Assembly (NCBI RefSeq): GCF_014268655.2
Contig: NZ_JABWQX020000001.1
Coordinates: forward strand, 124,001 to 188,000
Reading direction: 5' to 3'
Source: Pseudomonas marvdashtae
GTDB taxonomy: Bacteria > Pseudomonadota > Gammaproteobacteria > Pseudomonadales > Pseudomonadaceae
Length of the DNA stretch: 64,000 bases
Below, one piece after another: positions 17,758 through 42,357 of the stretch. The notes beneath the pieces were generated by a model, which saw only the letters and a program-made list of their open reading frames with translations, was not told the DNA's origin and did no database searches. The first letter of the stretch is position 1. Each line of letters opens with the position of its first letter. Position numbers and translations under genes: made by a program.

Positions 17758-18540
17758 ATGAAGAAAATCATCCACAACCTCGCGCCCTGGGTGGTGCCGC
17801 TATTGTTGGTGGCGGTGTGGCAATTGTCGGTATCGGCGGGCTGGTTATCCACGCGAATCCTGCCGGCGCCGTCAGCGGTGATCGAGGCCGGAGCGAGCCT
17901 GGTGCGCAGCGGCGAAATCTGGACGCACCTGGCAATCAGCGGCTGGCGAGCCGCGGTCGGCTTTTTGATTGGCGGCGGCCTCGGCTTGGCGCTGGGCTTT
18001 ATCACCGGCCTGTCGAAATGGGGCGAACGACTGTTGGACAGCTCCGTGCAGATGGTCCGGAACGTCCCGCACCTGGCGCTGATTCCACTGGTGATCCTGT
18101 GGTTCGGCATCGATGAGTCAGCGAAGATTTTCCTGGTCGCGCTGGGCACGCTGTTCCCCATCTACCTCAACACTTACCACGGCATCCGTAACGTCGATCC
18201 GGCGCTGGTGGAGATGTCGCGCAGCTACGGCTTGTCCGGCTTCAGTCTGTTTCGCCAAGTGATCCTGCCGGGCGCCTTGCCTTCGATCCTGGTGGGCGTG
18301 CGGTTTGCCCTGGGTTTCATGTGGCTGACGTTGATCGTGGCGGAAACCATCTCGGCCAGTTCCGGCATCGGCTATCTGGCGATGAATGCCCGGGAATTCC
18401 TGCAGACCGACGTGGTGGTGCTGGCGATTCTCCTGTACGCCGTACTCGGCAAATTGGCCGACCTTGCTGCCCGTGGCCTCGAACGGGTCTGGCTGCGCTG
18501 GCACCCGGCGTACCAAGTGAACAAGGGAGGTGTCGCATGA
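17758..18540 (+). CDS. ssuC: Sulfonate ABC transporter permease
   Basis: Inner-membrane channel of the SsuABC importer, 260 residues with about six hydrophobic segments. The EAA-type loop is [20 protein letters not shown] followed by [11 protein letters not shown], positioned for contact with the ATPase. The N-terminal segment [20 protein letters not shown] is the first membrane span. I chose MKKIIHNL (17758), seven bases after ssuD, since upstream codons overlap ssuD. Its TGA overlaps the ATG of ssuB (ATGA), indicating translational coupling. Confidence 0.95.
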
Positions 18541-19343
18541 CCGCCCAACAACCGCCGCGCCTGCTGCGGGGTATTCCGCTGGCGGTGCGCAATCTGCAGA
18601 AGACGTTTGGCTCGCGCCAAGTGCTGCGTGACATTGATTTGCACGTTCCGGCTGGGCAGTTCGTCGCGGTGGTCGGTCGCAGCGGCTGCGGCAAGAGTAC
18701 GTTACTGCGATTGCTGGCAGGCCTCGATCAACCAACGGGCGGCCAGCTGTTGGCCGGTTCGGCGTCGCTGGATGCTGCACGGCAGGACACGCGGCTGATG
18801 TTCCAGGAAGCGCGTCTGCTGCCGTGGAAAAAGATCATCGATAACGTTGGCCTTGGGCTCAAAGGCAACTGGCGGCCGCAAGCCTTGCAGGCGCTGGAGG
18901 CCGTAGGGTTGGCTGATCGCGCCCATGAGTGGCCGGCGGCGTTGTCCGGCGGGCAGAAGCAGCGGGTGGCCTTGGCCCGCGCGCTGATCCATCAACCGCG
19001 CCTGTTGCTGCTCGATGAGCCCTTGGGCGCGCTCGATGCGCTGACTCGGATCGAGATGCAGCAATTGATCGAACGCCTGTGGCAGCAACACGGTTTCACC
19101 GTACTGCTGGTGACTCATGACGTCAGTGAAGCGGTGGCAATTGCCGACCGGGTGATCCTGATCGAAGACGGCCAGATCGGCCTCGACTTGGCCATTGACC
19201 TGCCACGGCCACGTGCTCGCGGCTCCCATCGGCTGGCGAGCCTGGAAACCGAAGTGCTCAATCGCGTGTTGTCCTTGCCCGGCCAACCGCCGGAGCCCGA
19301 ACCCGTTTCACCCTTGCCCACGCAGTTGCGGTGGGCGCAATAA
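18537..19343 (+). CDS. ssuB: Sulfonate ABC transporter ATP-binding protein
   Basis: ATPase that drives sulfonate import, 268 residues. Walker A is GRSGCGKST (about residues 46-54). The signature is [15 protein letters not shown], Walker B is [12 protein letters not shown], and the switch histidine is in [11 protein letters not shown]. The Q-loop region appears as [13 protein letters not shown]. The extended C-terminus after the core ([20 protein letters not shown]) is usual for SsuB. The start overlaps the ssuC stop by four bases. Confidence 0.95.
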
Positions 19344-21853: not shown

Positions 21854-22131
21854 GATGCAACACCTTTGTTGTTAAAAATATCAATCATTGATTGCTTTGA
21901 AAGCCAGTCAACCCGAACGGCATGCCGAAGTCAAGCGGGGCCGTTTTTGCCCTAAAAAAGCACCTGTAGGGGTTTTTTGGGGCAATTTTGGGCGTTTTTT
22001 GCCTTTCAAGCGGCTTGCCGCCCGCAGGCTTGAGCGGGCCGTGTTGTATTTTTTACGGGGGTGTTGTGTAAAAAAATGAACAAGGCTAAGCTCGATTCAA
22101 ACCCATAACAGCAATAATACCGGGGTGCTTC
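21854..22131. promoter_or_regulatory. spuI/spuA divergent control region
   Basis: 278 bases between divergent start codons. Three G runs separated by T tracts lie at 21969-21992. An odd palindrome, CAAGCGGCTTG, is at 22007-22017. GCCCGC (22020-22025) pairs with GCGGGC (22034-22039) and is followed by a T-rich stretch, a possible attenuator-like hairpin on the spuA side. The left 60 bases by spuI are AT-rich. Polyamine-responsive control is expected, but no known operator is recognisable. Confidence 0.45.
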
Positions 22132-27179: not shown

Positions 27180-28289
<1,110 letters not shown>

Positions 28290-28359
28290 CGTTTAGCGCT
28301 CTAACTATTCCAAGCTCGTCCGCATGGGGCGGGCTGCAAATTCTGTGGGAGTTTCGTAA

Positions 28360-29502
28360 ATGGCAGTTGCCTCCGGCGCCTATAAGAAAGCCCTCGAGGG
28401 CGACCAGACACCCAAGCAGGTGTTGGTCAAGATCGACCGGGTCACGAAGAAGTTCGACGAGACGATTGCCGTGGACGACGTGTCCCTGGAAATCAAGAAA
28501 GGTGAAATTTTCGCCTTGCTCGGCGGTTCGGGATCGGGCAAATCCACTTTGCTGCGCATGCTGGCAGGTTTCGAGCGGCCCACGGAGGGGCGAATTTTCC
28601 TCGATGGCGTAGACATCACCGACCTGCCGCCCTATGAGCGGCCGATCAACATGATGTTCCAGTCCTACGCCTTGTTTCCCCACATGACCGTGGCGCAGAA
28701 CATCGCCTTCGGTCTGCAACAGGACAAGATCTCGAAATCCGAGATCGACGCCCGCGTGGCCGAAATGCTCAAGCTGGTGCAGATGAGCCAGTATGCCAAG
28801 CGCAAGCCGCACCAGCTCTCCGGTGGCCAGCGCCAGCGCGTGGCCCTGGCCCGTTCCTTGGCCAAACGACCGAAACTTCTACTGCTCGACGAGCCGATGG
28901 GCGCCCTGGACAAGAAGCTGCGCTCGCAAATGCAGCTTGAGCTGGTGGAGATCATCGAGCGCGTGGGCGTGACCTGCGTCATGGTGACCCACGACCAGGA
29001 AGAGGCCATGACCATGGCCGAGCGCATCGCGATCATGCACCTGGGTTGGATCGCCCAGATCGGCAGCCCGATCGACATCTACGAGACCCCGACCAGCCGG
29101 CTGGTCTGCGAGTTCATCGGCAACGTCAACATCTTCGAGACCGAAGTGGTGGAAGACGCCGAGGGCCATGCGGTGCTGACCTGCAAGGACCTGGACCGCA
29201 ACATCTACGTGGGCCACGGCATCAGCACCTCGGTGCAGGACAAGTCCGTGACCTACGCCATCCGCCCGGAAAAACTCCTGGTCACCCCAGAGCAGCCGAC
29301 CTGTGAGCACAACTGGTCCAGCGGCAAGGTCCACGACATCGCCTACCTGGGCGGTCACTCAGTGTTCTACGTCGAATTGCCGAGCGGCAAACTGGTGCAG
29401 TCGTTCGTCGCCAACGCCGAGCGACGTGGCCAGCGTCCGACCTGGGGCGACCAGGTGTTCGTCTGGTGGGAAGACGACAGCGGCGTGGTGCTTCGCTCAT
29501 GA
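28360..29502 (+). CDS. spuF: Polyamine ABC transporter ATP-binding protein
   Basis: PotG-like ATPase energising polyamine import, 380 residues. Walker A is GGSGSGKST (about 55-63), the signature is LSGGQRQRVALARSL, Walker B is LLLLDEPMGALDKKL, and the switch His is in VMVTHDQEEAM. A C-terminal TOBE domain follows from about residue 290, including AIRPEKLLV. The stop codon overlaps the spuG start (ATGA at 29499-29502), implying coupled translation. Confidence 0.95.
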   Translation: MAVASGAYKKALEGDQTPKQVLVKIDRVTKKFDETIAVDDVSLEIKKGEIFALLGGSGSGKSTLLRMLAGFERPTEGRIFLDGVDITDLPPYERPINMMFQSYALFPHMTVAQNIAFGLQQDKISKSEIDARVAEMLKLVQMSQYAKRKPHQLSGGQRQRVALARSLAKRPKLLLLDEPMGALDKKLRSQMQLELVEIIERVGVTCVMVTHDQEEAMTMAERIAIMHLGWIAQIGSPIDIYETPTSRLVCEFIGNVNIFETEVVEDAEGHAVLTCKDLDRNIYVGHGISTSVQDKSVTYAIRPEKLLVTPEQPTCEHNWSSGKVHDIAYLGGHSVFYVELPSGKLVQSFVANAERRGQRPTWGDQVFVWWEDDSGVVLRS

Positions 29503-30419
29503 ACATGCGCAAACTCAAACGCCGACTCGCCCGAATAACGCCCGGTGGCCGTCAATTGGTCATCGGGGTGCCCTTCATCTGGCTGTTCCTGTTCTTCATG
29601 TTGCCGTTCTTCATCGTATTGAAGATCAGTTTCGCCGAAGCCGATGTCGCCATCCCGCCGTACACCGAGATCTACAGCTACATCGACCAGAAGCTGCAGG
29701 TGCTGCTCAACCTCGGCAACTATGTGATGCTCAGCGAGGACGAGCTGTACATCGCCGCCTACCTCGGCTCGCTGAAAATGGCCCTGATCAGCACGGTGCT
29801 GTGCCTGTTGATCGGCTACCCGATGGCCTACGCCATCGCCAACGCCCGTAAAGAGATGCAGACGGTGCTGGTGTTGCTGATCATGATGCCGACCTGGACC
29901 GCGATCCTGATCCGCGTCTACGCGTGGATGGGCATCCTCAGCAACAACGGTTTGCTCAATGGCTTCCTGATGAGCATGGGCTGGATCAGCGAACCCTTGC
30001 AGATCCTCAACACCAACCTGGCGGTGTACATAGGCGTCGTCTATTCCTATTTGCCGTTCATGATCCTGCCGTTGTACGCCAACCTGGTGAAGCATGACGC
30101 CAGCCTGTTGGAAGCCGCGTCGGACCTGGGTTCGAGTACCTTCAACAGCTTTTGGAAAATCACCGTGCCGCTGTCCAAGAACGGCATTATCGCGGGCTGC
30201 ATGCTGGTGTTCATTCCCGTGGTGGGCGAGTTCGTGATCCCGGAACTGCTGGGTGGCCCGGAAACCCTGATGATCGGCAAAGTGCTGTGGCAGGAATTCT
30301 TCAATAACCGAGACTGGCCGGTGGCGTCCGCCCTGGCGGTGGTGATGCTGGCGATCCTGATCGTGCCCATCATCTTGTTCAACCGTAGCCAGGCCAAAGA
30401 AATGGAGGGCAAGGAATGA
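29499..30419 (+). CDS. spuG: Polyamine ABC transporter permease (PotH-like)
   Basis: Inner-membrane permease, 306 residues with six main hydrophobic spans. The first is around LVIGVPFIWLFLFFMLPFFI. The EAA-type loop is LLEAASDLGSSTFNSFWKIT followed by VPLSKNGIIAG. GEFVIPELLGGPETLMIGKV is a family hallmark. I chose ATG 29499 because it forms the ATGA overlap with spuF; longer in-frame starts fall inside spuF. It overlaps spuH in the same way. Confidence 0.95.
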   Translation: MNMRKLKRRLARITPGGRQLVIGVPFIWLFLFFMLPFFIVLKISFAEADVAIPPYTEIYSYIDQKLQVLLNLGNYVMLSEDELYIAAYLGSLKMALISTVLCLLIGYPMAYAIANARKEMQTVLVLLIMMPTWTAILIRVYAWMGILSNNGLLNGFLMSMGWISEPLQILNTNLAVYIGVVYSYLPFMILPLYANLVKHDASLLEAASDLGSSTFNSFWKITVPLSKNGIIAGCMLVFIPVVGEFVIPELLGGPETLMIGKVLWQEFFNNRDWPVASALAVVMLAILIVPIILFNRSQAKEMEGKE

Positions 30420-31303
30420 AGCGCTTCCGTTTTTCAAGCCTGATGCTGGTGCTGGGTTTGCTGTTCATCTACGCACCGATGCTGATCCTGGTGATCTACT
30501 CGTTCAACGCCTCGAAGCTGGTGACGGTGTGGGGCGGCTGGTCGATCAAATGGTACGTCGGCCTGCTGGACAACAGCCAGTTGATGGGCTCGGTGATGCG
30601 CTCGCTGGAAATCGCCTGCTACACGGCGATTGCCGCGGTGGCCCTGGGGACGCTGGCGGCCTTCGTGCTGACCCGCATCACCCACTTCAAGGGGCGCACG
30701 CTGTTCGGTGGCCTGGTCACCGCGCCGCTGGTGATGCCGGAAGTGATCACCGGTCTGTCGCTGTTGCTGCTGTTCGTGGCCATGGCGCAGATGATCGGCT
30801 GGCCGCAGGAACGTGGCATCGTCACGATCTGGATCGCCCACACGACGTTCTGCGCGGCTTATGTGGCGGTGGTGGTCTCGGCGCGCTTGCGTGAGCTGGA
30901 CCTGTCCATCGAGGAAGCGGCGATGGACCTCGGGGCGCGGCCGTGGAAGGTGTTCTTCCTGATCACCATCCCGATGATCGCGCCGTCACTGGCAGCGGGC
31001 GGCATGATGTCCTTCGCCTTGTCCCTGGACGACCTGGTGCTGGCAAGCTTCGTTTCCGGTCCTGGGTCGACGACCTTGCCGATGGAAGTGTTCTCGGCGG
31101 TGCGCCTGGGTGTGAAGCCGGAAATCAACGCCGTGGCGAGCCTGATCCTGCTGGCGGTGTCGCTGGTGACCTTCCTGGTCTGGTACTTCAGCCGTCGCGC
31201 CGAAGAGAACCGCAAGCGGGCGATCCAGCAAGCCATCGAGGAAAGCGCTGCCGATTCCTGGAAACAACCGCAGGCGCGCCGGGCCGATACCGCGCCGGTC
31301 TGA
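30416..31303 (+). CDS. spuH: Polyamine ABC transporter permease (PotI-like)
   Basis: Second permease of the importer, 295 residues. The N-terminal span is SLMLVLGLLFIYAPMLILVI, with YSFNASKLVTVWGGWSIKWY following. The EAA loop is SIEEAAMDLGARPWKVFFLI, then TIPMIAPSLAAGG. LSLDDLVLASFVSGPGSTTL is a strong PotI signature. The start overlaps spuG by four bases. The C-terminal tail is long and polar. It is the last gene of the spu run; a REP-like palindrome follows within 20 bases. Confidence 0.95.
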   Translation: MKRFRFSSLMLVLGLLFIYAPMLILVIYSFNASKLVTVWGGWSIKWYVGLLDNSQLMGSVMRSLEIACYTAIAAVALGTLAAFVLTRITHFKGRTLFGGLVTAPLVMPEVITGLSLLLLFVAMAQMIGWPQERGIVTIWIAHTTFCAAYVAVVVSARLRELDLSIEEAAMDLGARPWKVFFLITIPMIAPSLAAGGMMSFALSLDDLVLASFVSGPGSTTLPMEVFSAVRLGVKPEINAVASLILLAVSLVTFLVWYFSRRAEENRKRAIQQAIEESAADSWKQPQARRADTAPV

Positions 31304-31320
31304 CCCGGCGCAGGACTTAC

Positions 31321-31348
31321 TGTGGGAGCGGACTTGCTCCCGCAGTGG
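31321..31348. repeat. REP-like palindrome after spuH
   Basis: GTGGGAGC...GCTCCCGC hairpin (TGTGGGAGCGGACTTGCTCC with its CGCAGTGG tail), the usual P. fluorescens REP core, 17 bases beyond spuH. It lies between converging genes and may stabilise or end the spu transcript. Confidence 0.75.
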
Positions 31349-31369
31349 TCTGTTCGATCATTCCCACCT

Positions 31370-31711
31370 TCACTTCTTCAGCGCGTCATGAGCCTCCAGC
31401 GCCCGCAAGGAATAGATATAGGCCGCCCCGGCGTTCAGCGAAACCGCGGTGGCCAGGGTCGCGGCAATTTCTTCGCGGGTAGCGCCGGCCTTGATGGCGG
31501 CGTCGGTGTGCACGCCAATGCAGCCGTCGCAGCGGGTGGTAATCGCGACGGCGATGGAGATCAGCTCGCGGGTCTTGGCATCGAGCACGTTGTTATCGGC
31601 GGCGGCTTCATCCAGGGCCACGTAGGCCTTGACCATTTTCGGATTGCTTTTGCCCAAGGCGCCAAACGCGCTTTTGATGGTGGGGAGCAGCTCGGACCAG
31701 TTATTGAACAT
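31370..31711 (-). CDS. AhpD-like carboxymuconolactone-decarboxylase family protein
   Basis: Small AhpD-fold protein of 113 residues, with a probable peroxidase or thiol-disulfide role. The active-site motif is CDGCIGVH (Cys61, Cys64, His68), matching the CxxCxxxH pattern of AhpD-type hydroperoxidases. ELISIAVAITTR precedes it, and the ATREEIAATLATAVSLNAGA helix follows, as in this family. I start at MFNNWSELLP; five codons further upstream are possible. It lies alone between the spu operon and hacB. Confidence 0.85.
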   Translation of the reverse strand: MFNNWSELLPTIKSAFGALGKSNPKMVKAYVALDEAAADNNVLDAKTRELISIAVAITTRCDGCIGVHTDAAIKAGATREEIAATLATAVSLNAGAAYIYSLRALEAHDALKK

Positions 31712-31798
31712 TGCGGTGGACTCCATTGCGATGAAAGGGCTTGGGCCCTCGTAGTCTTGACCATCAATGGCGAGCGAGCCGGTTGATGGTCAAAAGAT

Positions 31799-34204
31799 TC
31801 ACTGCGCCCCGGCGGGTAGCAGTTTCAAAGTGCCGCGGCTATTGGCCGTGACTTCTTCCTCGGCCAGGTGCGCCTGGTGATACAAACCCTCGATGTAGGC
31901 TTCGGCCTGGTCCTCGTAATGCTTGTCGAACGGCACGCCGCTCTGGCCGACAGGGTTGATGGTGAGGCTGTGGGTCGGGTCGCCGAAGTCGATGATGCGT
32001 CGCGTGGACGGGCCGTAGGTCACTGGCCAGGGCGCCGGGCCGATCTTGGCCGAAAGGTTGTTGGGCACTTCATGGGTGCCGGGCGCCGCGAACGGGCCGA
32101 CATTGAAGATCCGGTCCAGGGGTTTTTGCTGGCCCAATGGATGGCCGTGGGCCAGGGTGTGGGCCTTGCCCCACTGCCATTGGCTGGCGTCTTCGCCCAA
32201 TGTGGCCTTCAGGTGTACCAGGGTCTTGGTCCAGGCCTTGATCACCGTGTCGGCGCGGGTTTCGGTGCCCAATGTCGAACGGTCGTCCCACCACGGCGAA
32301 TCCTTCGCCTCAGCCAAGCGTGGCAACGCGGCGTCGATCACGCGAGTCGACAGCGCGGTTTCGAAGAAACCATCGCCCAGCTCATCGCGCAGCGCAGCGT
32401 TGGCCAGCTCGAACAGGAACTGGTTGAACAGCGTGGCGCTGATGGAGTCCAGCGGGTAATCGCCTTTCCATGCACCCAGTTGTTCAAGCCATTTACGTTC
32501 CTGCGGGTCGCTGACGGTTTCGCGCAGGATCGGCAACAATGGCGCGAGCAGGCGCGGGCCATAGGCGGTGGTGGTGCCCAGTTGCAGTTTTTGGGTGGTC
32601 TGGAGATCCCACTTGGCCTGCTTGTCGCCCAACTGCTGGTCAAGTTGCTGGCCACGGTCGGGAAGATTGTAGTAACCCGGAATCTCGATCCCGCTGGCCG
32701 GCACCGGCTGGAAATTCGCCGAGAGAACGTAGCCTCGGGCCGGATTTTCTTCCTGGGGATTGCTGCTGAAAGGATAGAAACCGTCTTTTTCCGCTTCTGC
32801 GCCGCTGCCATCGAGGATGAAACCGGGCTTCACGCCAGCCTGGCGCTTAGGCAATTGCGCCGCAGCCCACCAGCCGATATCGCCCTTGGCATTGGCCCAG
32901 ACCACATTCAGCCCCGGCGCATGGATCTTGGCCGATGCGCCGCGGGCCTTGGCGAGGGTGTCGGCGCGGTTGAGCTCGTAGAACGCTTCGAGGATCGGAT
33001 TGCGGCTTTCCAGAAATCCCCACCACATGGCAATCGGCGTCTTGCCGGCATTCGCGCCGAGGGCGTCATTGACGATCGGGCCATGGGGCGACTGGCGCAG
33101 CACCAGCGTCACCGGCGCCTGGCCCTTGACGGCGATCTGCTGTTCGCTGCGGGTCATGTCCACCCACTGGTCGCGGTACCAGACTTGCTCTGGGTTGTCG
33201 GGGTTGATCTTCTCGGCGATCAGGTCCAGGTCGTCGTTCTGGAACATGGTGATGCTCCAGCCGAAATCCTTGTTCATGCCCAACGAGGCAAACGGCATCA
33301 ACGCCTGATACTGGCCGTAGAGTTCAAAGCCCGGCGCCGACAGGTGCGCCTCGTACCACACCGACGGCGCGGAAAAGCGAATGTGCGGGTCGCCGGCCAA
33401 CAAGGGCTTGCCGCTGTGGGTGCGGCTGCCGGAGACCGCCCACGCATTGCTGCCCTCGAACTGCGGCAGCCCATTATCGGCCAAGGCCTGCTCGCTCAGG
33501 CGCGCCAGGGCGTTGAGGCCTGTCCAGTCGGAAGCGGACAACGACGGAGCGGTTTGCGCGTCAGGGGCGAGCACGCCGTTGGGCTGCCAGTCGAGGTCGA
33601 AAATATCCAGGTAGTCGGCGCCGAGCTTGTCGCGCACGTAAGTCAGCAGGGGTTCGGTGCGAAAGGCGGCGGCAAAGCTGTACGCCATGTAGCCGACGAT
33701 GCTGGCGGTATCTTCAGCGGTGAACGGGCGCTTGGGAATGCCCAGTACATCGAACTCCAGCGGCCGGGCATGGGTTTGCTGATAAGTGTTGATGCCGTCC
33801 AGGTACGCCTGGGTCGCGATCCAGGCCGGGGACTGGCGATCCTGCTCGGCAACGTAGCTGGCGGCGCGCTCACGAATGCGCAGGCTGCGCATCAGCTTGT
33901 CGGTGTCGAGCAGCTTCGGCCCGAGGATTTCCGCCAGTTCACCACGGGCGAGGCGACGCATGATTTCCATCTGGAACAGCCGGTCCTGGGCATGGACATA
34001 ACCGAGGGCGCGATACAGGTCAGTTTCGTTCTCGGCGCGGATATGCGGCACGCCGCGCTCGTCGTAGCGCACCGTCACCGAGCCCTGCAGCCCTTGCACT
34101 TGCACGGTGCCCTGGCGGGTCGGCTGCTTGCTGTAGAGGTAGCCGCCCGCGACGATGACGGCGGTGACGACCAGTGACAGGAAGGCGATGAGGGTGCGTT
34201 TCAT
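31799..34204 (-). CDS. hacB: Penicillin-acylase family Ntn-hydrolase, probable acyl-homoserine lactone acylase HacB
   Basis: Exported N-terminal-nucleophile amidohydrolase, 801 residues. A signal peptide or anchor (TLIAFLSLVVTAVIVAGGYL) leads into the alpha subunit. The beta subunit is predicted to start at the Ser of EGSNAWAVSGSRT (about residue 252), the catalytic nucleophile exposed by self-cleavage. The GVPHIRAENETDLYRALGYV block and the C-terminal GQSGVPFDKHYEDQ are family typical. In P. aeruginosa the gene next to spuH (PA0305, from memory) encodes the AHL acylase HacB, so position supports the name. Substrate range (AHLs, beta-lactams, acyl-peptides) is not readable. I prefer ATG 34204 with GGA upstream; a start four codons earlier is possible. 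Confidence 0.75.
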   Translation of the reverse strand: MKRTLIAFLSLVVTAVIVAGGYLYSKQPTRQGTVQVQGLQGSVTVRYDERGVPHIRAENETDLYRALGYVHAQDRLFQMEIMRRLARGELAEILGPKLLDTDKLMRSLRIRERAASYVAEQDRQSPAWIATQAYLDGINTYQQTHARPLEFDVLGIPKRPFTAEDTASIVGYMAYSFAAAFRTEPLLTYVRDKLGADYLDIFDLDWQPNGVLAPDAQTAPSLSASDWTGLNALARLSEQALADNGLPQFEGSNAWAVSGSRTHSGKPLLAGDPHIRFSAPSVWYEAHLSAPGFELYGQYQALMPFASLGMNKDFGWSITMFQNDDLDLIAEKINPDNPEQVWYRDQWVDMTRSEQQIAVKGQAPVTLVLRQSPHGPIVNDALGANAGKTPIAMWWGFLESRNPILEAFYELNRADTLAKARGASAKIHAPGLNVVWANAKGDIGWWAAAQLPKRQAGVKPGFILDGSGAEAEKDGFYPFSSNPQEENPARGYVLSANFQPVPASGIEIPGYYNLPDRGQQLDQQLGDKQAKWDLQTTQKLQLGTTTAYGPRLLAPLLPILRETVSDPQERKWLEQLGAWKGDYPLDSISATLFNQFLFELANAALRDELGDGFFETALSTRVIDAALPRLAEAKDSPWWDDRSTLGTETRADTVIKAWTKTLVHLKATLGEDASQWQWGKAHTLAHGHPLGQQKPLDRIFNVGPFAAPGTHEVPNNLSAKIGPAPWPVTYGPSTRRIIDFGDPTHSLTINPVGQSGVPFDKHYEDQAEAYIEGLYHQAHLAEEEVTANSRGTLKLLPAGAQ

Positions 34205-34365
34205 GAAAAATTCCATTTCCTAATTGCCGAAGGTTATCGATAAACAACGTAGAGCATTGATCTAAAACAAACAATAGCCCGTTAAGTGACTAGATTCCTA
34301 CAAGAACAAAACTTGTCTTAGGAAGCATCCCGCATGTCTATCGGAATTGCACTACAAGAATAATG

Positions 34366-34395
34366 TTGCTGGTGCTTTCATATCTAATCTATAAA
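34366..34395 (+). promoter_or_regulatory. Candidate promoter of the seryl-tRNA synthetase paralogue
   Basis: TTGCTG (34366-34371) and TATAAA (34390-34395) lie 18 bases apart in a strongly AT-rich gap, giving a leader of roughly 65 bases before the chosen start codon. The gap's composition matches the gene's, so it probably arrived with it. Confidence 0.35.
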
Positions 34396-34466
34396 AGATG
34401 AATGGTTTTTCAATGCGTTCTGGTCGGCGATTTGGGGCGCAGGTTAGTGATAGTGGTGGAAGTCAG

Positions 34467-35768
34467 ATGATAAGTGTCAAAGAGATAAGGGAAGACGTAG
34501 GAAGAATGAAGGCTAACTTATCCGCAAGGGGGCTAAGCTTTGATTTGGATCGGTTTCTCTCTTTATATGACGATGTGAAGTCGCATAAACAGAAGATCGA
34601 GGAAGTGCAGTGCAAGCTGAATGCAGTTTCTAAGATTATAAAAGATGGTCTATGGAAGGACGACTCTCAGTCGATGCTCTCCGATGCGTCAGTACTGAAG
34701 GGCTATATCCTGCGCGCCAAGGAGTCTTATAACTTGCTAATTGAGGAGTTTGATTTGCTTTCGCGGCAACTGCCCAATTGGACCTCCCCAGACGTACCTG
34801 TGGGGAAAACTGATGATGATAATTTAACCATCAAATATAAGGGGCAGATTCCAGAATTCGATTTTTCTCATAAGGACCATGTTCAGTTAGGTCAGGAATT
34901 AGATCTAATCGATTTTGATTCGGGTACGAAAGTAGCGGGTTCAAAGTTTTATTTTTTGAAGAATCAGGCTGTATTTCTCCAGCACGCACTTAAGAGTTTT
35001 ATTTTTAATAAGGCATTGAGAGCTGGATTCACGCCATTGCAAACTCCGGATGTCTCTTTTAATCACATTTTGGAAGGTGTTGGCTTCGCTCCAAAAGGTG
35101 ACGAAAGTAACACTTATGGTCTCGAGGGTCTGGATAAAAGTCTTATTGCTACTGCTGAAATATGCGTTGCCGGGATGCATGCTGGGGAGGTTATTGATGA
35201 ATCTAGATTGCCTCTGCTCTACATCGCTGAAAGTCATTGTTTTAGGCGTGAAGCTGGCGCTTCCGGGAGATCCAGTAAAGGGCTTTATAGAGTCCATCAG
35301 TTTGAGAAATTGGAGCTGTTTGTCATATGCAAGCCGGAGGACAGTGCTAAATATCATGACAAGATTCTTGAGCTGCAAGAGGAGATCTATGGTGAGTTGG
35401 GTATTCCCTATAAGGTCGTAATAAACTGCACTGGGGATTTAGGGGCGCCAGCATATAAAAAATATGATATTGAAGCGTGGATGCCAGGGAAAGGTATCGC
35501 CGGGGAGTACGGTGAGATTACTTCCGCCAGTAACTGTACCGACTATCAGGCTCGGCGACTGAATATCAAGTACAGAGATTCTGCTTCAAAAACTAATCGG
35601 TATGTTCATACTCTTAACGGTACTGCATCTGCGTTGGGCAGAACGATGGTGGCCATTTTAGAAAATTATCAGTGTGCTGATGGTTCGGTGAAAATGCCTG
35701 AAGCGCTGAAGCGTTACCTTGACTTTGACCAGATTGCGCCAGTGGTCAACGACTCCCATAGAGCATAA
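34467..35768 (+). CDS. Second-type seryl-tRNA synthetase (stand-alone, AT-rich, likely transferred)
   Basis: Complete class II seryl-tRNA synthetase homologue of 433 residues. The N-terminal tRNA-binding helical arm (about 30-105) is present. Catalytic landmarks are the Thr-Ala-Glu serine-binding motif at 229-231 (LIATAEI) and motif 2 at 259-283 (FRREAGASGRSSKGLYRVHQ...). The CTGDLGAPAYKKYDIEAWMP block sits at 321-340, with TSASNCTDYQARR after it and motif 3 at about 384-402 (NGTASALGRTMVAILENYQ). All key residues look intact, so it should be active. It is much more AT-rich than its neighbours (27/60 and 24/60 G+C in two sampled lines) and uses rare codons. Such paralogues can confer resistance to serine-analogue drugs or feed Ser-tRNA to biosynthesis; no partner genes are nearby. 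ATG 34467 has GGAAG upstream. Confidence 0.92.
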   Translation: MISVKEIREDVGRMKANLSARGLSFDLDRFLSLYDDVKSHKQKIEEVQCKLNAVSKIIKDGLWKDDSQSMLSDASVLKGYILRAKESYNLLIEEFDLLSRQLPNWTSPDVPVGKTDDDNLTIKYKGQIPEFDFSHKDHVQLGQELDLIDFDSGTKVAGSKFYFLKNQAVFLQHALKSFIFNKALRAGFTPLQTPDVSFNHILEGVGFAPKGDESNTYGLEGLDKSLIATAEICVAGMHAGEVIDESRLPLLYIAESHCFRREAGASGRSSKGLYRVHQFEKLELFVICKPEDSAKYHDKILELQEEIYGELGIPYKVVINCTGDLGAPAYKKYDIEAWMPGKGIAGEYGEITSASNCTDYQARRLNIKYRDSASKTNRYVHTLNGTASALGRTMVAILENYQCADGSVKMPEALKRYLDFDQIAPVVNDSHRA

Positions 35769-35777
35769 GCCTGGGCG

Positions 35778-35813
35778 GAGCAAACCCATCTTTTACTTGA
35801 GGTGGGTTTGCTC
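35778..35813 (+). terminator. Hairpin after the seryl-tRNA synthetase gene
   Basis: GAGCAAACCCA (35778-35788) pairs perfectly with TGGGTTTGCTC (35803-35813), 9 bases after the stop codon. The following T run is weak. The right arm touches the stop codon of the converging DUF6436 gene. Confidence 0.6.
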
Positions 35814-36390
35814 ATTTGCTCGACTCAGCCCAAGGACAATAACAACCCACCGCCATCGTGTGCGTCGCATCGACCGCCCGGCCGACGCTAAGGGCTTCGA
35901 GAATCGGTTCGATAAAGCTGTTGCTGGAGTTGCAAGTCAGGCCTTCGCTGTAAGGACCGAAATACGCCAGCTTGCCGCTGCGGTCCCAGATTGCTACGGC
36001 CGGGCTGGCGGGAATCTGGCTCGATCCGGGAAGCGCCGGGAGGGTTTTCAAGTTGCTCAACGTGGCGGGCAGCCGACCTTGGCTGCCCGTTTTTTGTACC
36101 GTATAAAACTCGACGCCTTGCGGTGCATATTTGTCGACCAGTTCGGACAGGTGTTGCTGGTTGCCGACATTGCATGGACAGGCCGGATCCCAGAAATGCA
36201 CCAGGCGGATCGCGCCCGGGCCGGCCAGGTCGGCGGGCAGGCTTAGAGGGTCACCGGAAAAGACCGCCGTATGTTGGCTGAACGCCCGCAGGAAACGTCC
36301 CTGGAACCAGTCGTAGGCGAACCACAGCATGACGGCGCACCCTAGGGCGAGGAAGCAGGCAAGCAAGGTCGGGCGGTGGGACGGGCGCAT
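35812..36390 (-). CDS. Thioredoxin-like DUF6436 protein
   Basis: 192-residue protein anchored by an N-terminal membrane segment (TLLACFLALGCAVMLWFAYD) with its bulk in the periplasm. The domain has a thioredoxin-like core: IRLVHFWDPACPCNVGNQ, with an unusual CPC motif (Cys71, Cys73) instead of CxxC, and ASPAVAIWDRSGKLAYFGPY as the cis-Pro region. Further cysteines (GLTCNSS, GCYCPW) suggest redox or metal chemistry. It matches the DUF6436 family; the function is unknown. I start at MRPSHRPTLL, since upstream codons lack a signal or a ribosome-binding site. Confidence 0.78.
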   Translation of the reverse strand: MRPSHRPTLLACFLALGCAVMLWFAYDWFQGRFLRAFSQHTAVFSGDPLSLPADLAGPGAIRLVHFWDPACPCNVGNQQHLSELVDKYAPQGVEFYTVQKTGSQGRLPATLSNLKTLPALPGSSQIPASPAVAIWDRSGKLAYFGPYSEGLTCNSSNSFIEPILEALSVGRAVDATHTMAVGCYCPWAESSK

Positions 36391-36498
36391 GGAGTCGATC
36401 CTCTGAAGCCGCGTAGCTTGCCATGCCCGGCGCGACAGATGAATATCACACACCTATAAAGCCTGTTTTCGCGCGATGCGCATTTGCCTGGACTATTG

Positions 36499-37449
36499 AT
36501 GCCCGCCTCTTTCGACCCTGATTACCTGCGCGCCAGCCTGCAACCCTTGGCGCATTGGCAGCCGTTGTCTGCACAAGCGCAGGCCTACCAGCATTTCTAT
36601 GGACTCGACTTTGCGACGCGCACCTTGCGCAGGGGCCTGGGCCGTTTCGAAATACCGGGATTCGAGCTGGTTAGCCAGGTCTGGTGGCCGGAAAAGGCCG
36701 TGGCGACGTTGTTCGTCTTTCATGGTTACTACGATCACATGGGACTGTATCGGCACCTGATCGAATGGGCGCTGGAACAGCAGTTTGTGGTGATCAGCTG
36801 CGATTTGCCAGGGCATGGCCTGTCCAGCGGCGAACGCGCCAGCATCGGCGATTTCGCTGATTACCAAGCGACGTTGCAAGGTCTGCTGAGTGAAGCCCAG
36901 ACACTGGGTTTGCCGCAACCCTGGCACCTGTGCGGACAGAGCACCGGCGGAGCCATCGTGGTGGACCATGTCCTCAACCATGGCGTGGACAGTCCGGCCC
37001 AGGGTCAGGTCATCCTGCTGTCGCCGCTGGTTCGGCCACGAGCCTGGGGCTGGTCGCGCCTGAGCTATTACTTGCTCAAGCCTTTTGTGACTGGCATCGC
37101 CCGGCGTTTCAGCGAGAACTCCAGCGATCCGGATTTCCTGCCGTTCCTGCAGGCCGATCCGCTGCAACCGCTGCGCTTGCCCACCGCGTGGGTCGGTGCG
37201 CTAGGGCAATGGATCAAGCGCATCGAGGCAGCGCCGAGCAGTTCGCGCCAACCCTTGATCGTGCAGGGGCAGGCTGACATGACGGTGGATTGGCGGCATA
37301 ACCTGCAAGTGCTGCGCGGCAAGTTTGATCGGCCACAGGTCATGATGTTGCCTGAGGGGCGGCATCACCTGGCAAATGAAACGCTGGCGATGCGCGAAGA
37401 GATGTTCGGGTTCTTGACCCAGCGGATGAGTGTGAACGGGCGAAGCTGA
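36499..37449 (+). CDS. Alpha/beta hydrolase (lysophospholipase/monoacylglycerol-lipase type)
   Basis: Serine hydrolase of the Hydrolase_4 family, 316 residues. The nucleophile elbow is HLCGQSTGGAIVV (Gly-Gln-Ser-Thr-Gly). The likely acid is in QGQADMTVDW and the His in EGRHHLAN. The oxyanion region is LFVFHGYYDHMGLYRHLIEW, and SCDLPGHGLSSGERASI is typical of monoacylglycerol lipases. I start at ATG 36499 because the longer frame opens with TTG and lacks support. No signal peptide is visible, so it is presumably cytosolic. Substrate unknown. Confidence 0.82.
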   Translation: MPASFDPDYLRASLQPLAHWQPLSAQAQAYQHFYGLDFATRTLRRGLGRFEIPGFELVSQVWWPEKAVATLFVFHGYYDHMGLYRHLIEWALEQQFVVISCDLPGHGLSSGERASIGDFADYQATLQGLLSEAQTLGLPQPWHLCGQSTGGAIVVDHVLNHGVDSPAQGQVILLSPLVRPRAWGWSRLSYYLLKPFVTGIARRFSENSSDPDFLPFLQADPLQPLRLPTAWVGALGQWIKRIEAAPSSSRQPLIVQGQADMTVDWRHNLQVLRGKFDRPQVMMLPEGRHHLANETLAMREEMFGFLTQRMSVNGRS

Positions 37450-37453
37450 AGTT

Positions 37454-38197
37454 CTACTGCCCCAGGCTTTGCCCCACCGCCAACCCCGCCCGAATCGCCT
37501 CCAGGGCCGCTTTGTAATAAGCCTGGCCCTCGGCCGATTCGGCGAACGTCGCGAACTCTTCCAGCTCGGTATCGCTCAAGTCGCGGTAGACGTACAGCAG
37601 CGTGTTGTTCAGGTCCGTGCCGATCTGGTCCATCAGGCGCTGGCGTTGGCCATTCAACATGCCTTGGGCCTGGCCGCCGCCGAGCAGGCCGGGAATCATC
37701 GAGCTCAGGCTGTCGGCCGCCACACCGGCGATGGCCAGGCTGACCTCGGCGCCGGCTTCGCGGGCGGGCAGGGCCTGGGCCAAATGGCCGATGATCAGCA
37801 AGCGATTGTCGCTGGCCTGCATCTTGGGCAGGCCCTTGGCGTTCTTCGCCAATTGATCGCGGCGGGTGGCGAGCAGTTCGGCCGCGACAACCTTGCGACC
37901 CAGCGGTGACTGGAAAAAGGTCAGGGCCGGGTTCGGGTCGGATAGGTTCTTGCGCAACTGAGCCTCGGCCCGTTGATCCATGGCCTGGGGGGCGAAACGT
38001 TGATTGCTGTTGTTCACCAGCGCCTGGAAGACGGCGGGCGGCAGGCTGCTCTGGTATCGCTGCTGCGCGGCGTTCAAGGCGTCATTGAAATGCGCCCGTT
38101 GTTCCGGCCAGCCGGCGACCTTGTACAACTGGTCGTAGCTGTCTGCCCAGGCGGGCAACACGCAGAACATCAACAGTGAGAAAAGCAAACGGCGCAT
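37454..38197 (-). CDS. DUF2059 family secreted protein
   Basis: 247-residue exported protein. The signal peptide MRRLLFSLLMFCVLPAWA is cleaved before DSYDQLYKVAGWPEQRAHFN. The C-terminal half carries the DUF2059-type helical repeat with LSDTELEEFATFAESAEGQAYYKAALEAIR, which in this family mediates an unknown periplasmic role. The start is set by the signal peptide. It converges on the alpha/beta hydrolase gene with only 4 bases between the stop codons. Confidence 0.8.
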   Translation of the reverse strand: MRRLLFSLLMFCVLPAWADSYDQLYKVAGWPEQRAHFNDALNAAQQRYQSSLPPAVFQALVNNSNQRFAPQAMDQRAEAQLRKNLSDPNPALTFFQSPLGRKVVAAELLATRRDQLAKNAKGLPKMQASDNRLLIIGHLAQALPAREAGAEVSLAIAGVAADSLSSMIPGLLGGGQAQGMLNGQRQRLMDQIGTDLNNTLLYVYRDLSDTELEEFATFAESAEGQAYYKAALEAIRAGLAVGQSLGQ

Positions 38198-38337
38198 AGG
38201 GACTCCTGTCAGCAGCCGACTATTCTCCGTGGGGGGCGGGAACTTGTCGAGAATTCGTATCAAGTTCGTACGGCGGTGCTACTTCGGTCGGCCAACCTGC
38301 TGCGCGGCGCTGTCGGTTTTTCAGGCACAGGAATACT

Positions 38338-38970
38338 ATGCGCGCCATGCAAATACCTTCTGATCATCCGTTGCTGTTACGTATCGTCGACGACCTGGCC
38401 GAGCACGGTTGGTCGCAGCAGAATATCTTCCTGCCCGATGCGCTGACGCGCGCCCTGGCGACCGAGTGCCGTCAGCGCGCCGCCGAGGGCGAACTGGCTC
38501 CAGCCGCCGTTGGGCGCGGGCCGTTTTCGCAGATCCGTGAAGGAATCCGGGGTGATCGCATCCAATGGATCGAGCCCGGCCAGGTGCAAGCCTGCGATCG
38601 TTACCTGGCGCTGATGGACAGCCTGCGCGAGGCCTTGAACCGTGGGCTGTTCCTGGGGCTGGAGGATTTTGAAAGCCACTTCGCCCTGTATCCGCCGGGA
38701 GCGTTTTATCTCAAGCACGTCGACCGCTTCCGTGACGATGATCGACGCATAGTCTCGGCGGTGCTCTATCTCAATGACGCTTGGCTGCCGGAGCATGGCG
38801 GCCAATTGCGCATGTACCTGGACGAAGGTGTGGCCCACGATGTGGTGCCCACGGGCGGATGCCTGGTGGTGTTCTTATCGGGGGAGATTCCCCATGAAGT
38901 GCTGCCGGCCACGCGTGACCGCCTGTCTTTGACCGGTTGGTTCCGACGCCGCGGCAACGAGCTGTTCTGA
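38338..38970 (+). CDS. Fe(II)/2-oxoglutarate-dependent prolyl hydroxylase (PPHD-like)
   Basis: 210-residue dioxygenase. The iron triad is visible: His127 and Asp129 in FYLKHVDRF, with His186 in GEIPHEVLP. Arg195 (RDRLSLTGWF) is placed to bind 2-oxoglutarate. The protein closely resembles the Pseudomonas prolyl hydroxylase PPHD, shown in P. aeruginosa to hydroxylate a proline of elongation factor Tu and related to animal HIF prolyl hydroxylases. The product AVLYLNDAWLPEHGGQLRMY also fits P4H folds. Oxygen-dependent EF-Tu modification is the likely role, by homology. A DUF523 gene follows with 2 bases between. Confidence 0.82.
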   Translation: MRAMQIPSDHPLLLRIVDDLAEHGWSQQNIFLPDALTRALATECRQRAAEGELAPAAVGRGPFSQIREGIRGDRIQWIEPGQVQACDRYLALMDSLREALNRGLFLGLEDFESHFALYPPGAFYLKHVDRFRDDDRRIVSAVLYLNDAWLPEHGGQLRMYLDEGVAHDVVPTGGCLVVFLSGEIPHEVLPATRDRLSLTGWFRRRGNELF

Positions 38971-38972
38971 AC

Positions 38973-39464
38973 ATGGAAAAGATTCTCGTCAGTCGCTGCC
39001 TGCTCGGCCACCGCGTGCGCTACGACGGTGGCGCCAGTGGCCCATTCGACCGGCTCCAGCAATGGCTCGACGAAGGCCGGGTCGTGGCGCTGTGCCCGGA
39101 AGTCGCCGGCGGCTTGCCTACGCCTCGGGCGGCGGCGGAGATTCCCGGCGGACAGGGCGCGCAGGTGCTTGATGGCGATGCGGCGGTGATCACGACCGAC
39201 GGCGAGGATCTCAGCGCGCAGTTTCTCTCGGGTGCGCATCAGGCGTTGGACCTGGTGCGGGAACACGGCATCCGGATCGCCGTGCTCAAGGCCAACAGCC
39301 CCTCGTGCGGCAACCTGCTGACTTATGACGGTACGTTCAGTGGTGTGAAGGTTCGTGGCGAAGGCGTGACGGCGGCTTTGCTCAAGCGCAACGGCGTCTT
39401 GGTGTTCAGCGAGTTGGAGCTGGCTGAAGCGGCGTTGGCGCTCAAGGCGCAGGGCGCAGAATAG
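38973..39464 (+). CDS. DUF523 family protein
   Basis: 163-residue protein of unknown function with conserved cysteine motifs: VSRCLLGHRVRYDGG near the start, VALCPEVAGGLPTPRAAAEI in the middle, and LKANSPSCGN later. Cys residues in these blocks suggest metal binding. It begins two bases after the hydroxylase stop codon (GAACATGG), so the two genes are co-transcribed and perhaps linked in function. A REPIN-like palindrome follows. Confidence 0.85.
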   Translation: MEKILVSRCLLGHRVRYDGGASGPFDRLQQWLDEGRVVALCPEVAGGLPTPRAAAEIPGGQGAQVLDGDAAVITTDGEDLSAQFLSGAHQALDLVREHGIRIAVLKANSPSCGNLLTYDGTFSGVKVRGEGVTAALLKRNGVLVFSELELAEAALALKAQGAE

Positions 39465-39484
39465 CAGCCCCAGATCTGCTTTTT

Positions 39485-39611
39485 TGTGGCGAGGGGATTT
39501 ATCCCCGCGGGGTCGCGAAGCGGCCCCTGCTTTTCTATCCGATAAACGCCGGCGCTCGATATTTTTTTGGGGCCGCTTCGCACCCCAGCGGGGATAAATC
39601 CCCTCGCCACA
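39485..39611. repeat. REPIN-like double palindrome (copy A)
   Basis: A 127-base element framed by TGTGGCGAGGGGATTTATCC and its complement GGATAAATCCCCTCGCCACA, with GCGAAGCGGCC and GGCCGCTTCGC forming an inner pair. It lies between converging genes (DUF523 and the GTPase) and resembles the element at 45794. Confidence 0.85.
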
Positions 39612-39623
39612 GAAGTTTGTCCC

Positions 39624-40997
39624 TTAGAGCTCCTCGGCCAATTGCTCGATCTGCTCCTGCCGTTCAGCCTGGCTCAATTTTGGCTGGGGATTGAGCGACG
39701 ACCATTGCGGATACGCCCGAGCCTTGCTCAACGCCTCGGGCAGCTTGCCTTCGCGCCAGGTCTTGTCCTGGGGCGCGTCGATGCGGATGCTGTCCATCGC
39801 CGCATGGCCGCGCTGATTGATCGCTTGCAGCAATTGCCGCTGACGCAAGGCCAGCAGGCGCAGCACGTTGTCGTCCACCGTCAACTCCCGCTGGCCCTTG
39901 AGCTTGCCCATCAATCGGTTGCCATAGCTGCGGGCCGTTTGCAGCGCGCCGCCGGCAATCGCCCCGGCCAGGGCGGCGGCGCCAAGGGTCAGGCCACCCA
40001 CCAGCAAGTCCACGCCAGCACCCGCCGCCGCGCCCGCCGCGATCCCGCCACCGACCCGCACGCCCAACTGCTTGAGCGTGTCGGGATTGAATAGATCATC
40101 GCCCCAGCGGCCGTCCAGCAGCGGTAAATCGCTGGCGGCTGCATCTTGCGGGCGGAAGGCATAGAGCTTGAGCAAGGCCTCGACGCAGCGCTGCTCCCGC
40201 TGACGCACGGCGTTGCGCAATTGACCGATGGCCTCGCGTTCCAGGTCGGCTTCGCTGGCGACGCTACGTCGGCAGGCGGCGCAGTCGATCAGCAGTTCGG
40301 CGATCAATCGCTTCGCGCTCTGCTGGCGAGCCAGGCGCTGGGCCTGTTGATCGACGATCAGGCGCTCCAAGGGTTCGCGGGCGCTTTCCAGCAGCAGCGC
40401 GAGGCTTTCATAGAGCCGGCGTTCGCCGTCCTCCGGCGGGGCTACGCTGTCGAAGCGCACCAGCGCATGCAGGCCCAACCGTGCCAGGGCTTCGCGCCAG
40501 TCGGGTTCGCGGTGGTGGGCGCTGCTGACGAAGTTGAGCACCGGCAGTAACGGTTTGCCGCAACTGGCGAGGACTTCCAATTCATCGCGATATTTGGCCA
40601 GCACAGGCTCGCGGGCATCGATCACGTAGAGCCCGGCATCGCTGGCGAGCAGTTGCCGCAGGACCTTGGCTTCCTGCTCGAAGCGCTGCCGCGCCTCGCT
40701 GCCCTCAAGGAAACGCGCCAGGCGCGCCGGGCCATCCAAGCGCTCACCCGGCCGCTCCAGGCGTTCGAGGTAATCAAGCAGGGCGATGGCGTCTTCCAGC
40801 CCCGGCGTGTCGTACAGTTCCAGCAACGCTTGGCCGTCCACTGACAAGCGAGCCCCTTCGACGTGCCGGGTCGTGCTCGGCCGGTGGGACACCTCGCCGA
40901 AGCCAACGTCCCGCGTCAAGGTTCGCAGCAGGGACGTCTTGCCGACATTGGTGTGGCCGACGACGGCGAGTTTCAATGGCTTGATGGAGTCAGTCAT
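39624..40997 (-). CDS. GTPase with DUF3482 domain
   Basis: 457-residue P-loop GTPase, apparently membrane-associated. G1 is GHTNVGKTSLL (residues 14-24). G3 is YDTPGLEDA, and the G4-like region LPVLNFVSSAH departs from NKxD. The C-terminal half has a glycine/alanine-rich hydrophobic stretch (VGGGIAAGAAAGAGVDLLVG, LAGAIAGG), suited to membrane insertion or oligomerisation. Its start overlaps the end of the DUF2868 membrane-protein gene by 8 bases, so translation is coupled. The pair recurs in Pseudomonas, but its function is unknown. Confidence 0.85.
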   Translation of the reverse strand: MTDSIKPLKLAVVGHTNVGKTSLLRTLTRDVGFGEVSHRPSTTRHVEGARLSVDGQALLELYDTPGLEDAIALLDYLERLERPGERLDGPARLARFLEGSEARQRFEQEAKVLRQLLASDAGLYVIDAREPVLAKYRDELEVLASCGKPLLPVLNFVSSAHHREPDWREALARLGLHALVRFDSVAPPEDGERRLYESLALLLESAREPLERLIVDQQAQRLARQQSAKRLIAELLIDCAACRRSVASEADLEREAIGQLRNAVRQREQRCVEALLKLYAFRPQDAAASDLPLLDGRWGDDLFNPDTLKQLGVRVGGGIAAGAAAGAGVDLLVGGLTLGAAALAGAIAGGALQTARSYGNRLMGKLKGQRELTVDDNVLRLLALRQRQLLQAINQRGHAAMDSIRIDAPQDKTWREGKLPEALSKARAYPQWSSLNPQPKLSQAERQEQIEQLAEEL

Positions 40998-42357
40998 GGC
41001 CAGTCTCCAGCCAGTTCAACGGCGCACAGTCGGCGAACGGCAATTGCAATTGTTGCAGCGCGTTGTGCCAGTCCCCCAGGCGCTCGCCATCCAGCGCTTC
41101 GCCGGGCGGCGCCTGCAGCAGCCAGACGCGGGTGGCGCTGGCGCTGCGAGCCAGTTCGGCGATCAACGCCAGGCTGCCGCGGTCAGGCGAGCGCCGGGGA
41201 TCACAGGCAATCGCCAGGCGCGCGGGGGGAAAACGCGACAGTTGTTCGAGGAGTTTGTGGCGAGACTCGCGGCTGTCGAGAATACCGGCGTTTTTCACCG
41301 AGTCGGGCAGCTTCGGCGGCCACGGGCGTTCGTCCAGCTCTATGGCCACCAGCAATGCGCCGTCGCTCTCCATCGCATCGACTGTGCGCTCGACCTGATG
41401 CAATTGCGCGGGTGCGGCGTCATTGACCCCCAGGCGTTCGCTGCTGGGCATCAGTCGCTCGCGCAACTGAGCGTAGCCCGGCAGGTTCAGGTCCAGGCGC
41501 AGCCCGGCGCGACCACAGCGCCAGCGCCACAGGCACAGCAGGGCCAGGCACAGGCGCGGCAGCACGCCGTAGACCAGCAGAATGCCGACCAGCCACGCAG
41601 CCCAGGCCTGGCGGGCGCTCTCGATGTTCAACGCGGCGTCGCCACTGGCGCGGATCATCTCGACGGTCGGCACGCTGAACCCAAGGAGGGCAGGCAGCGC
41701 TCCGAGGGACTGGGTCAGGACGATGAAGGTTTCGCCGCCCAGAAGGGTGGTTTCCCAGACGAAGCCGTAACGCCGGGTCGCCATCAACATCAAGACGATC
41801 ACCATTGCGCTGAGCATGGCCAGCAACCACAAACCGTTGACCAACACACCGAGCGCCCAGCGATTGAGTTTGTGCCGTTGCAGCAACAGCAGCAGGGCCG
41901 GTGCCAGTTGGGCAGCCTTGGCGTCGCGGGCGAGTTTTTCGCTGAGCCACAACCACAGGCGCCCCAGCGCAGCACCTTGTTCCCCCGCGAATATCAGGCC
42001 CAGCACCCAACCGATGAGCAGGATCAGATTCAATCCCAACAGACTGCCGAGGGCCCAGAACACGTTGACCGGCGCGCGTCCATCGCCAAGGGCTGCGAAC
42101 CCCAGGCCGGCGCCGCTGACCGTGGCGAGCACCGCCAGCACCACTAGGGCCAGGCGCGCGCCTTGCAGCCAGTGGCGCAAGGCTTGGGTGAGGCCATCGC
42201 GTTCGGCCAGCGAGTGGGCGCGGTGGTGGATACGGGTGGACAGATCGCCTCCCGCCGCGCGGGCCAGGCGATTGGCTTCCTGGTCCTCAAGCGGGCCGGC
42301 GTGTTCTTCACGCAGGCGTATCGTCTCGGTCAACCAGAGGTTTTGCAGTTCAGTCAC
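40990..42357 (-). CDS. DUF2868 family membrane protein
   Basis: 455-residue integral membrane protein of unknown function. Hydrophobic spans are seen near residues 69-91 (RLALVVLAVLATVSGAGLGF), 101-125 (FWALGSLLGLNLILLIGWVL), 172-192 and 287-307. The soluble C-terminal part has PWPPKLPDSVKNAGILDSRE and a possible nucleotide-binding or regulatory module. It is translated first, and its end overlaps the GTPase start. The combination looks like a membrane partner for the GTPase. It lies divergent from folA with 77 bases between. Confidence 0.8.
   Translation of the reverse strand: MTELQNLWLTETIRLREEHAGPLEDQEANRLARAAGGDLSTRIHHRAHSLAERDGLTQALRHWLQGARLALVVLAVLATVSGAGLGFAALGDGRAPVNVFWALGSLLGLNLILLIGWVLGLIFAGEQGAALGRLWLWLSEKLARDAKAAQLAPALLLLLQRHKLNRWALGVLVNGLWLLAMLSAMVIVLMLMATRRYGFVWETTLLGGETFIVLTQSLGALPALLGFSVPTVEMIRASGDAALNIESARQAWAAWLVGILLVYGVLPRLCLALLCLWRWRCGRAGLRLDLNLPGYAQLRERLMPSSERLGVNDAAPAQLHQVERTVDAMESDGALLVAIELDERPWPPKLPDSVKNAGILDSRESRHKLLEQLSRFPPARLAIACDPRRSPDRGSLALIAELARSASATRVWLLQAPPGEALDGERLGDWHNALQQLQLPFADCAPLNWLETGHD

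Follow-up and report, generated by a model that had tools for sequence, protein, structure and literature searches.

Immunity genes serve to find new antibiotics. Among the closest described systems, AbmK (SerS2), the self-resistance seryl-tRNA synthetase (SerRS) of albomycin-producing Streptomyces, belongs to a complete producing cluster and has a demonstrated resistance role, VlmL, the SerRS of the valanimycin pathway, feeds seryl transfer within its cluster, and IleRS2, which provides mupirocin immunity in Pseudomonas fluorescens, is a synthetase of a distinct lineage found beside the housekeeping one (all according to excerpts of PMC9032320). Here, we describe SerRS2, the product of a second SerRS gene within a stretch of 64,000 nucleotides from the Pseudomonas marvdashtae genome (contig NZ_JABWQX020000001.1, positions 124,001 to 188,000), which at its full length is called the window in the following. 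AbmK is likewise a strongly divergent additional SerRS that accompanies a normal one, a likeness drawn from the description of AbmK; unlike AbmK, SerRS2 stands alone, occurs in Pseudomonas, and has a resistance role that we infer. With VlmL it has in common the enzyme family and the status of a second SerRS in a bacterium, and no VlmL-type partner using Ser-tRNA or seryl-adenylate was found near SerRS2 in the part of the window that was read (28000-42000), the rest of the genome not having been searched for such transferases. The P. fluorescens IleRS2, which we take to be MupM, differs from SerRS2 in the amino acid and in the drug concerned. MupM belongs to an intact cluster. As judged from sequence comparison, SerRS2 is intact, foreign, rare and constrained, and it occurs with the same acylase gene and a similar promoter-like element in four Pseudomonas genomes. 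We lean modestly towards the reading that SerRS2 is a foreign-lineage replacement-target immunity enzyme against seryl-nucleoside antibiotics, probably the only gene still left of a nucleoside-antibiotic operon.

The SerRS2 gene (34467..35768, + strand, 44.1% G+C) encodes an intact protein of 433 aa, the length of which agrees with that of its homologues. Its open reading frame spans 34398-35768 (+), and ATG 34467 was taken as the likeliest start because the resulting length fits the homologues; the alternative upstream ATG at 34398 falls inside the promoter-like element. The protein scores 456 bits against the NCBIfam serS model TIGR00414 (cut-off 302), as expected of a type 1 bacterial SerRS, and its domains include the tRNA-binding arm (PF02403) as well as the class II core (PF00587). 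The coiled-coil arm is encoded at 34467..34781 (+), with long helices predicted at residues 27-59 and 67-101, and the alignment places the TAE serine-binding motif (T229-E231) at 35151..35159, motif 2 FRREAG (F259-G264) at 35241..35258, and motif 3 NGTASALGR (N384-R392) at 35616..35642, all on the + strand. The catalytic columns of these three motifs are intact in the alignment of all four Pseudomonas SerRS2 copies, whereby we take the residue roles to be those of the Thermus thermophilus SerRS. The initial annotation had thus correctly described a full-length SerRS homologue with its arm and motifs. It had also called the gene AT-rich among GC-rich neighbours, which agrees with a G+C content of 42.4 and 44.4% in the two 500-bp bins lying fully within SerRS2 vs. 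52.6 to 68.4% in the bins outside 34001-36000.

The genome holds two SerRS genes, the second being the housekeeping serS at G000:C1:2020206-2021468, which is 35% identical to SerRS2. A divergent second copy alongside the housekeeping SerRS, as in self-resistance synthetases of the AbmK type, is therefore present. In a homologue search that scored 8000 sequences, the first 15 of the best 120 show 72-100% identity and, where an organism is named, belong to Pseudomonas; they are followed mostly by metagenome proteins with 55-65% and then by spirochaete-type SerRSs with about 51% identity. A quick tree was calculated from 99 rows, leaving out P0073-P0120 except P0076, P0098, P0100, and P0101, most spirochaete loci (seven were used), and sequences of up to 330 aa. 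In this tree the 18 Pseudomonas-type SerRS2 rows form one clade (SH-aLRT 99), and 3.4 changes per column separate the SerRS2 lineage from the serS of Pseudomonas, in the presence of long branches, above all that of the second SerRS of L011, an alphaproteobacterial metagenome-assembled genome (MAG). Identity and tree together place SerRS2 apart from the strain's own serS, and the second locus shows that it is not the only SerRS of the genome. Counting SerRS genes at 1e-10 in 12 genomes with lineage members yielded two genes in three Pseudomonas genomes and one Legionella MAG, three in the alphaproteobacterial MAG, and the lineage SerRS only in the other seven, including all three spirochaetes checked. 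From these counts, the lineage appears to serve some groups as their working housekeeping SerRS, whereas other groups have it as an additional copy. The motif 2 variant FRREAG had been proposed to mark altered substrate recognition. This we rule out: arginine stands at that column in all 15 spirochaete-group rows and is the commonest letter there among the 74 other lineage rows, spirochaete-group rows included, so that FRREAG is the ordinary motif 2 of the lineage, also in the three spirochaetes checked, where no other SerRS was detected, and no sign of altered specificity.

SerRS2 is under purifying selection, since the comparison of the window with P. zanjanensis gave 0.088 nonsynonymous (dN) and 1.03 synonymous (dS) substitutions per site, a ratio of 0.085. 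For the same genome pair, the acylase gene has a dS of 0.58 and a dN/dS of 0.11, and serS a dS of 0.29; the values are near saturation for strain RGM2987 and saturated for strain QTF5. All four Pseudomonas genomes keep the SerRS2 frame open, even though neighbour genes have decayed in two of them.

SerRS2 was found at 1e-100 in 2 of 398 Pseudomonas genomes, namely its own and RGM2987, and a second draw of 368 genomes (largely overlapping with the first, as far as the listed handles show) returned the same two; in a scan of GTDB species genomes, from which the window's own record may be absent, 510 loci were confirmed, and the best 80 of them include three from Pseudomonas. The insertion site is bounded on the left by a penicillin-amidase family acylase gene (31799..34216, - strand; PF01804, 702 bits) and on the right by a DUF6436 gene (35812..36453, - strand), the latter assignment of the initial annotation being supported by a domain match of 150 bits. 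Its name hacB for the acylase has not been established, the sole NCBIfam match being PvdQ with 64 bits at a cut-off of 950. DUF6436 was detected in 34 of 57 relatives including the own genome; of the 30 loci that were fetched, 29 belong to other genomes. SerRS2 is missing within 1.5 kb of DUF6436 in all 29 and at 1e-100 also from anywhere in those genomes; hence it is not a general resident of this site. The acylase start lies at most 220 bp from the DUF6436 stop in 15 of the 29, the gap is larger in 8 (among them L107 and L120, where an in-frame stop before the aligned end makes the values unreliable), and no acylase start occurs within 1.5 kb in 6. Seven of these loci were read further, whereby the acylase gene followed past cargo in five and no acylase was present in the stretch in two. 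The cargo, judged by eye from the translations, includes transposases, AraC-type regulators, and a chemotaxis-like protein, and in G035 (L129) type III secretion and effector/chaperone-like genes adjoin DUF6436, with no acylase in the roughly 10 kb read. SerRS2 itself adjoins the same acylase in the window, P. zanjanensis (L007), RGM2987 (L005/L008), and QTF5 (L009), and DUF6436 lies on its other side in the window, P. zanjanensis, and QTF5; in RGM2987 (L005, L135), type III secretion and effector/chaperone-like genes, again judged by eye, are next to SerRS2 and the acylase. A phage origin was rejected, as none of the 29 stretches matched in a viral_contigs scan encodes a relative. Phage records within an E limit of 1e-20 numbered 23, all below 60% identity to SerRS2 with the best near 38%, and 11 plasmid records within 1e-80 showed 38-39%. 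A literature search turned up no publication on a second SerRS of Pseudomonas, and no wider claim is made from this.

Upstream of the gene, at 34366..34400 (+), lies the promoter-like element TTGCTG-N18-TATAAAAGATG, which has similar counterparts in the three relatives and is followed by a short leader of 66 bp (34401..34466, +) with GGTGGAAG ahead of the ATG. In P. zanjanensis and RGM2987, near-identical hexamers with a spacing of 17-18 nt precede SerRS2 or its operon; the QTF5 element is the most diverged of the four loci. Allowing up to two mismatches, the pattern, which was derived from the window itself, matches once in the window vs. 0.02 expected, and its strict form matches 7 of 141 loci, each a copy of the SerRS2 locus of the window or of RGM2987. 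The promoter-like sequence suggested by the initial annotation is thus backed by its counterparts in relatives, but a consensus scan of 34100-35950 found no + strand promoter, nor an intrinsic terminator.

In the window, no biosynthetic gene was found among the neighbours of SerRS2 (28000-42000), which agrees with its earlier description as standing alone. In P. zanjanensis, 2.9 kb with three co-oriented AT-rich genes (42-47% G+C) separate the promoter-like element from SerRS2, and blastn leaves window positions 34373-34490 facing 7122-10024 of L007. These genes encode a 242-aa protein without a Pfam match, a KpsF/KdsD-like isomerase, and an AEC-type permease, in this order. The predicted fold of the 242-aa protein is closest to PolD and PasI, which are 2-oxoglutarate oxygenases of nucleoside pathways, at only 15-18% identity. 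No homologue of this putative oxygenase was detected at 1e-15 in the 398 genus genomes, the own one included, in a search run without a positive control. RGM2987 and QTF5 carry remnants of an ArgE/DapE-type M20 deacylase gene upstream of SerRS2, in about 0.45-0.57 kb; a 46-aa remnant piece in RGM2987 matched no family. The deacylase-SerRS2 pair is probably ancestral, because the remnant occurs in both SerRS2 subclades.

More distant lineage members stand in biosynthetic settings. The alphaproteobacterial MAG L011, which is uncultured, encodes a lineage SerRS with 53% identity and an albomycin-like gene set (L011:1449-13985) comprising an M20 deacylase, a PhyH oxygenase, an aldo/keto reductase, a second SerRS-like gene, a PALP enzyme, a methyltransferase, a NodU-type carbamoyltransferase, and an SHMT-fold protein. 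According to the excerpts of PMC9032320, the albomycin nucleoside requires the transaldolase AbmH, the pyridoxal phosphate-dependent epimerase AbmD, the synthetases AbmF and AbmK, the radical SAM enzyme AbmJ, the carbamoyltransferase AbmE, and the methyltransferase AbmI. In contrast to the albomycin set, a counterpart of AbmJ was not seen in L011. The transaldolase-like (SHMT-fold) protein of L011 has a homologue in Streptomyces globisporus (44% identity over 85%). S. globisporus is a species with albomycin producers. Three lineage SerRSs (P0051, P0058, and P0061) lie on contigs identical in size to those of transaldolase-like homologues (7199, 18662, and 116549 bp), so that the pairs appear to share contigs. 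The control was written only after these matches had been spotted by eye, and the comparison covered 69 of the 120 listed SerRSs and 120 of 248 transaldolase-like homologues; 0.066 coincidences are expected for contigs above 7 kb, and three were reached in 0 of 2000 draws. A fourth coincidence, at 3291 bp with the Pseudomonas-type SerRS P0014, was not counted, 0.35 being expected over all lengths. In the Legionella MAG (L082:106-2647), the extra lineage SerRS gene begins 28 bp after an AlaRS-like gene (PF01411, 47 bits) with a MATE-type gene adjoining, a possible pair of aminoacyl ligase and immunity enzyme. The relatives thus add support to a link with nucleoside antibiotics, although the window itself lacks a biosynthetic partner.

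Under the immunity reading, a drug mimicking seryl-adenylate would block the housekeeping SerRS, and SerRS2, expressed from the promoter-like element, would be insensitive to the drug and keep charging tRNA-Ser while the housekeeping enzyme is poisoned. Charging by SerRS2 is predicted because its catalytic residues are intact. The biosynthetic genes of the operon would have been lost and the immunity gene retained, perhaps because neighbours or kin continue to produce the drug. A more specific version, which we put forward tentatively and regard as doubtful, is that an undescribed Pseudomonas operon of the PolD/PasI-like oxygenase, the KpsF-like isomerase, the AEC permease, and SerRS2 makes or tailors a SerRS-poisoning seryl high-carbon-sugar nucleoside, and that strains, the window's included, repeatedly shed the synthesis genes and kept SerRS2 behind the original promoter as resistant non-producers. 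If true, a lone resistant synthetase that a few Pseudomonas retain at one address, with broken genes next to it in relatives, would point to SerRS-directed nucleosides of an unknown family in Gram-negative bacteria, and the locus would be a clean natural example of how producers turn into resistant bystanders by decay; the L011 gene set would extend seryl-nucleoside chemistry beyond Streptomyces.

Several observations weigh against these proposals. The window holds no biosynthetic partner, and unlike AbmK, SerRS2 is not located in a cluster for a SerRS inhibitor, its relatives showing gene remnants or three accessory genes instead. The P. zanjanensis oxygenase resembles PolD and PasI by fold and not closely by sequence, and its homologues occur in other Pseudomonas whose longest contigs match no listed SerRS2 contig in length; the oxygenase-SerRS2 link may therefore be a shared address only. 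The L011 SHMT-fold protein stays below the cut-offs for fluorothreonine transaldolase (155 bits at 650) and SHMT (158 at 335), and tblastn of the L011 deacylase against the QTF5 remnant at E 1 gave no match. The transaldolase-like locus L143 (gammaproteobacterial, G480), the one such locus found in 350 class genomes, has no lineage SerRS in the 19 kb read. RGM2987 shares the acylase flank only, DUF6436 not being found in 35 kb read. The SerRS2 dS exceeds that of the flanks (1.03 vs. 0.58), so that the copies may stem from separate acquisitions at one site rather than from a single inherited operon; replacement by recombination or a synonymous clock that runs faster in this AT-rich gene are alternatives to separate acquisition. 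Finally, the lineage SerRS is the only one detected in 7 of 12 genomes, so that lineage membership alone does not imply resistance.

The latter count also speaks for SerRS2 as a backup or condition-specific second SerRS, horizontally acquired and retained for translation during stress, without any antibiotic playing a part, and so do the intact catalytic site and the purifying selection. We consider this unlikely, as SerRS2 occurs in very few genomes of the genus (2 of 398) and adjoins the same acylase in each of the four Pseudomonas genomes that were read, and as the neighbours in its relatives are biosynthesis- and transport-like; in addition, three lineage relatives appear to share contigs with transaldolase-like genes. 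That SerRS2 feeds a tailoring enzyme, encoded at some other place in the genome, with seryl-adenylate or Ser-tRNA would fit the way AbmK and VlmL work (excerpts of PMC9032320) and the pairing of the lineage SerRS with a second SerRS-like protein in L011 and with an AlaRS-like protein in the Legionella MAG. Such a biosynthetic role seems improbable to us: the adjoining partners have decayed in RGM2987 and QTF5 and are missing from the window, yet SerRS2 is conserved, and neither the P. zanjanensis oxygenase (at 1e-15) nor the L011 transaldolase-like protein (at 1e-55) has a homologue in the own genome. That SerRS2 is mere cargo acquired at a variable insertion site, which serves no selected role and is heading for decay, would be in line with the insertion sequence elements, regulators, or type III secretion genes that other strains carry near the site; a SerRS2 dN/dS of about 0.09, close to the 0.11 of the acylase, and a frame kept open in all four Pseudomonas despite neighbour decay in two make this very improbable. 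From the proposal of a non-housekeeping SerRS paralogue and possible immunity gene, the paralogue status hence stands and the possible immunity role gains support from the neighbourhoods in relatives, whereas the FRREAG argument fails, and neither the name hacB nor an intrinsic terminator is established.

With regard to the latter, a perfect 11-bp inverted repeat (35778..35813) lies between the convergent SerRS2 and DUF6436 genes, and the 66-nt stretch folds with -31 kcal/mol (z -5.1). The terminator-like hairpin is therefore strong, but it lacks a T tract, and a true intrinsic terminator is not established. Upstream of SerRS2, an imperfect hairpin at 34293-34325 is in a 53-nt stretch no more stable than shuffles (z -0.8). 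In L011, an integrase-like gene (17918-19222, by eye) lies near the gene set. L143 stems from a small-genome gammaproteobacterium, and its transaldolase-like gene is near one for a protein that by eye resembles the 238-aa cupin-like protein of L011. The neighbours in L010, a MAG labelled Williamsia, resemble Bacteroidota proteins by eye, and the label may be wrong. The window contains no tRNA genes, and an Rfam scan at gathering thresholds gave nothing at the SerRS2 locus; the sole Rfam feature elsewhere in the window is the Pseudomonas sRNA P1 (RF00623, 172 bits) at 21947-22126 on the - strand.
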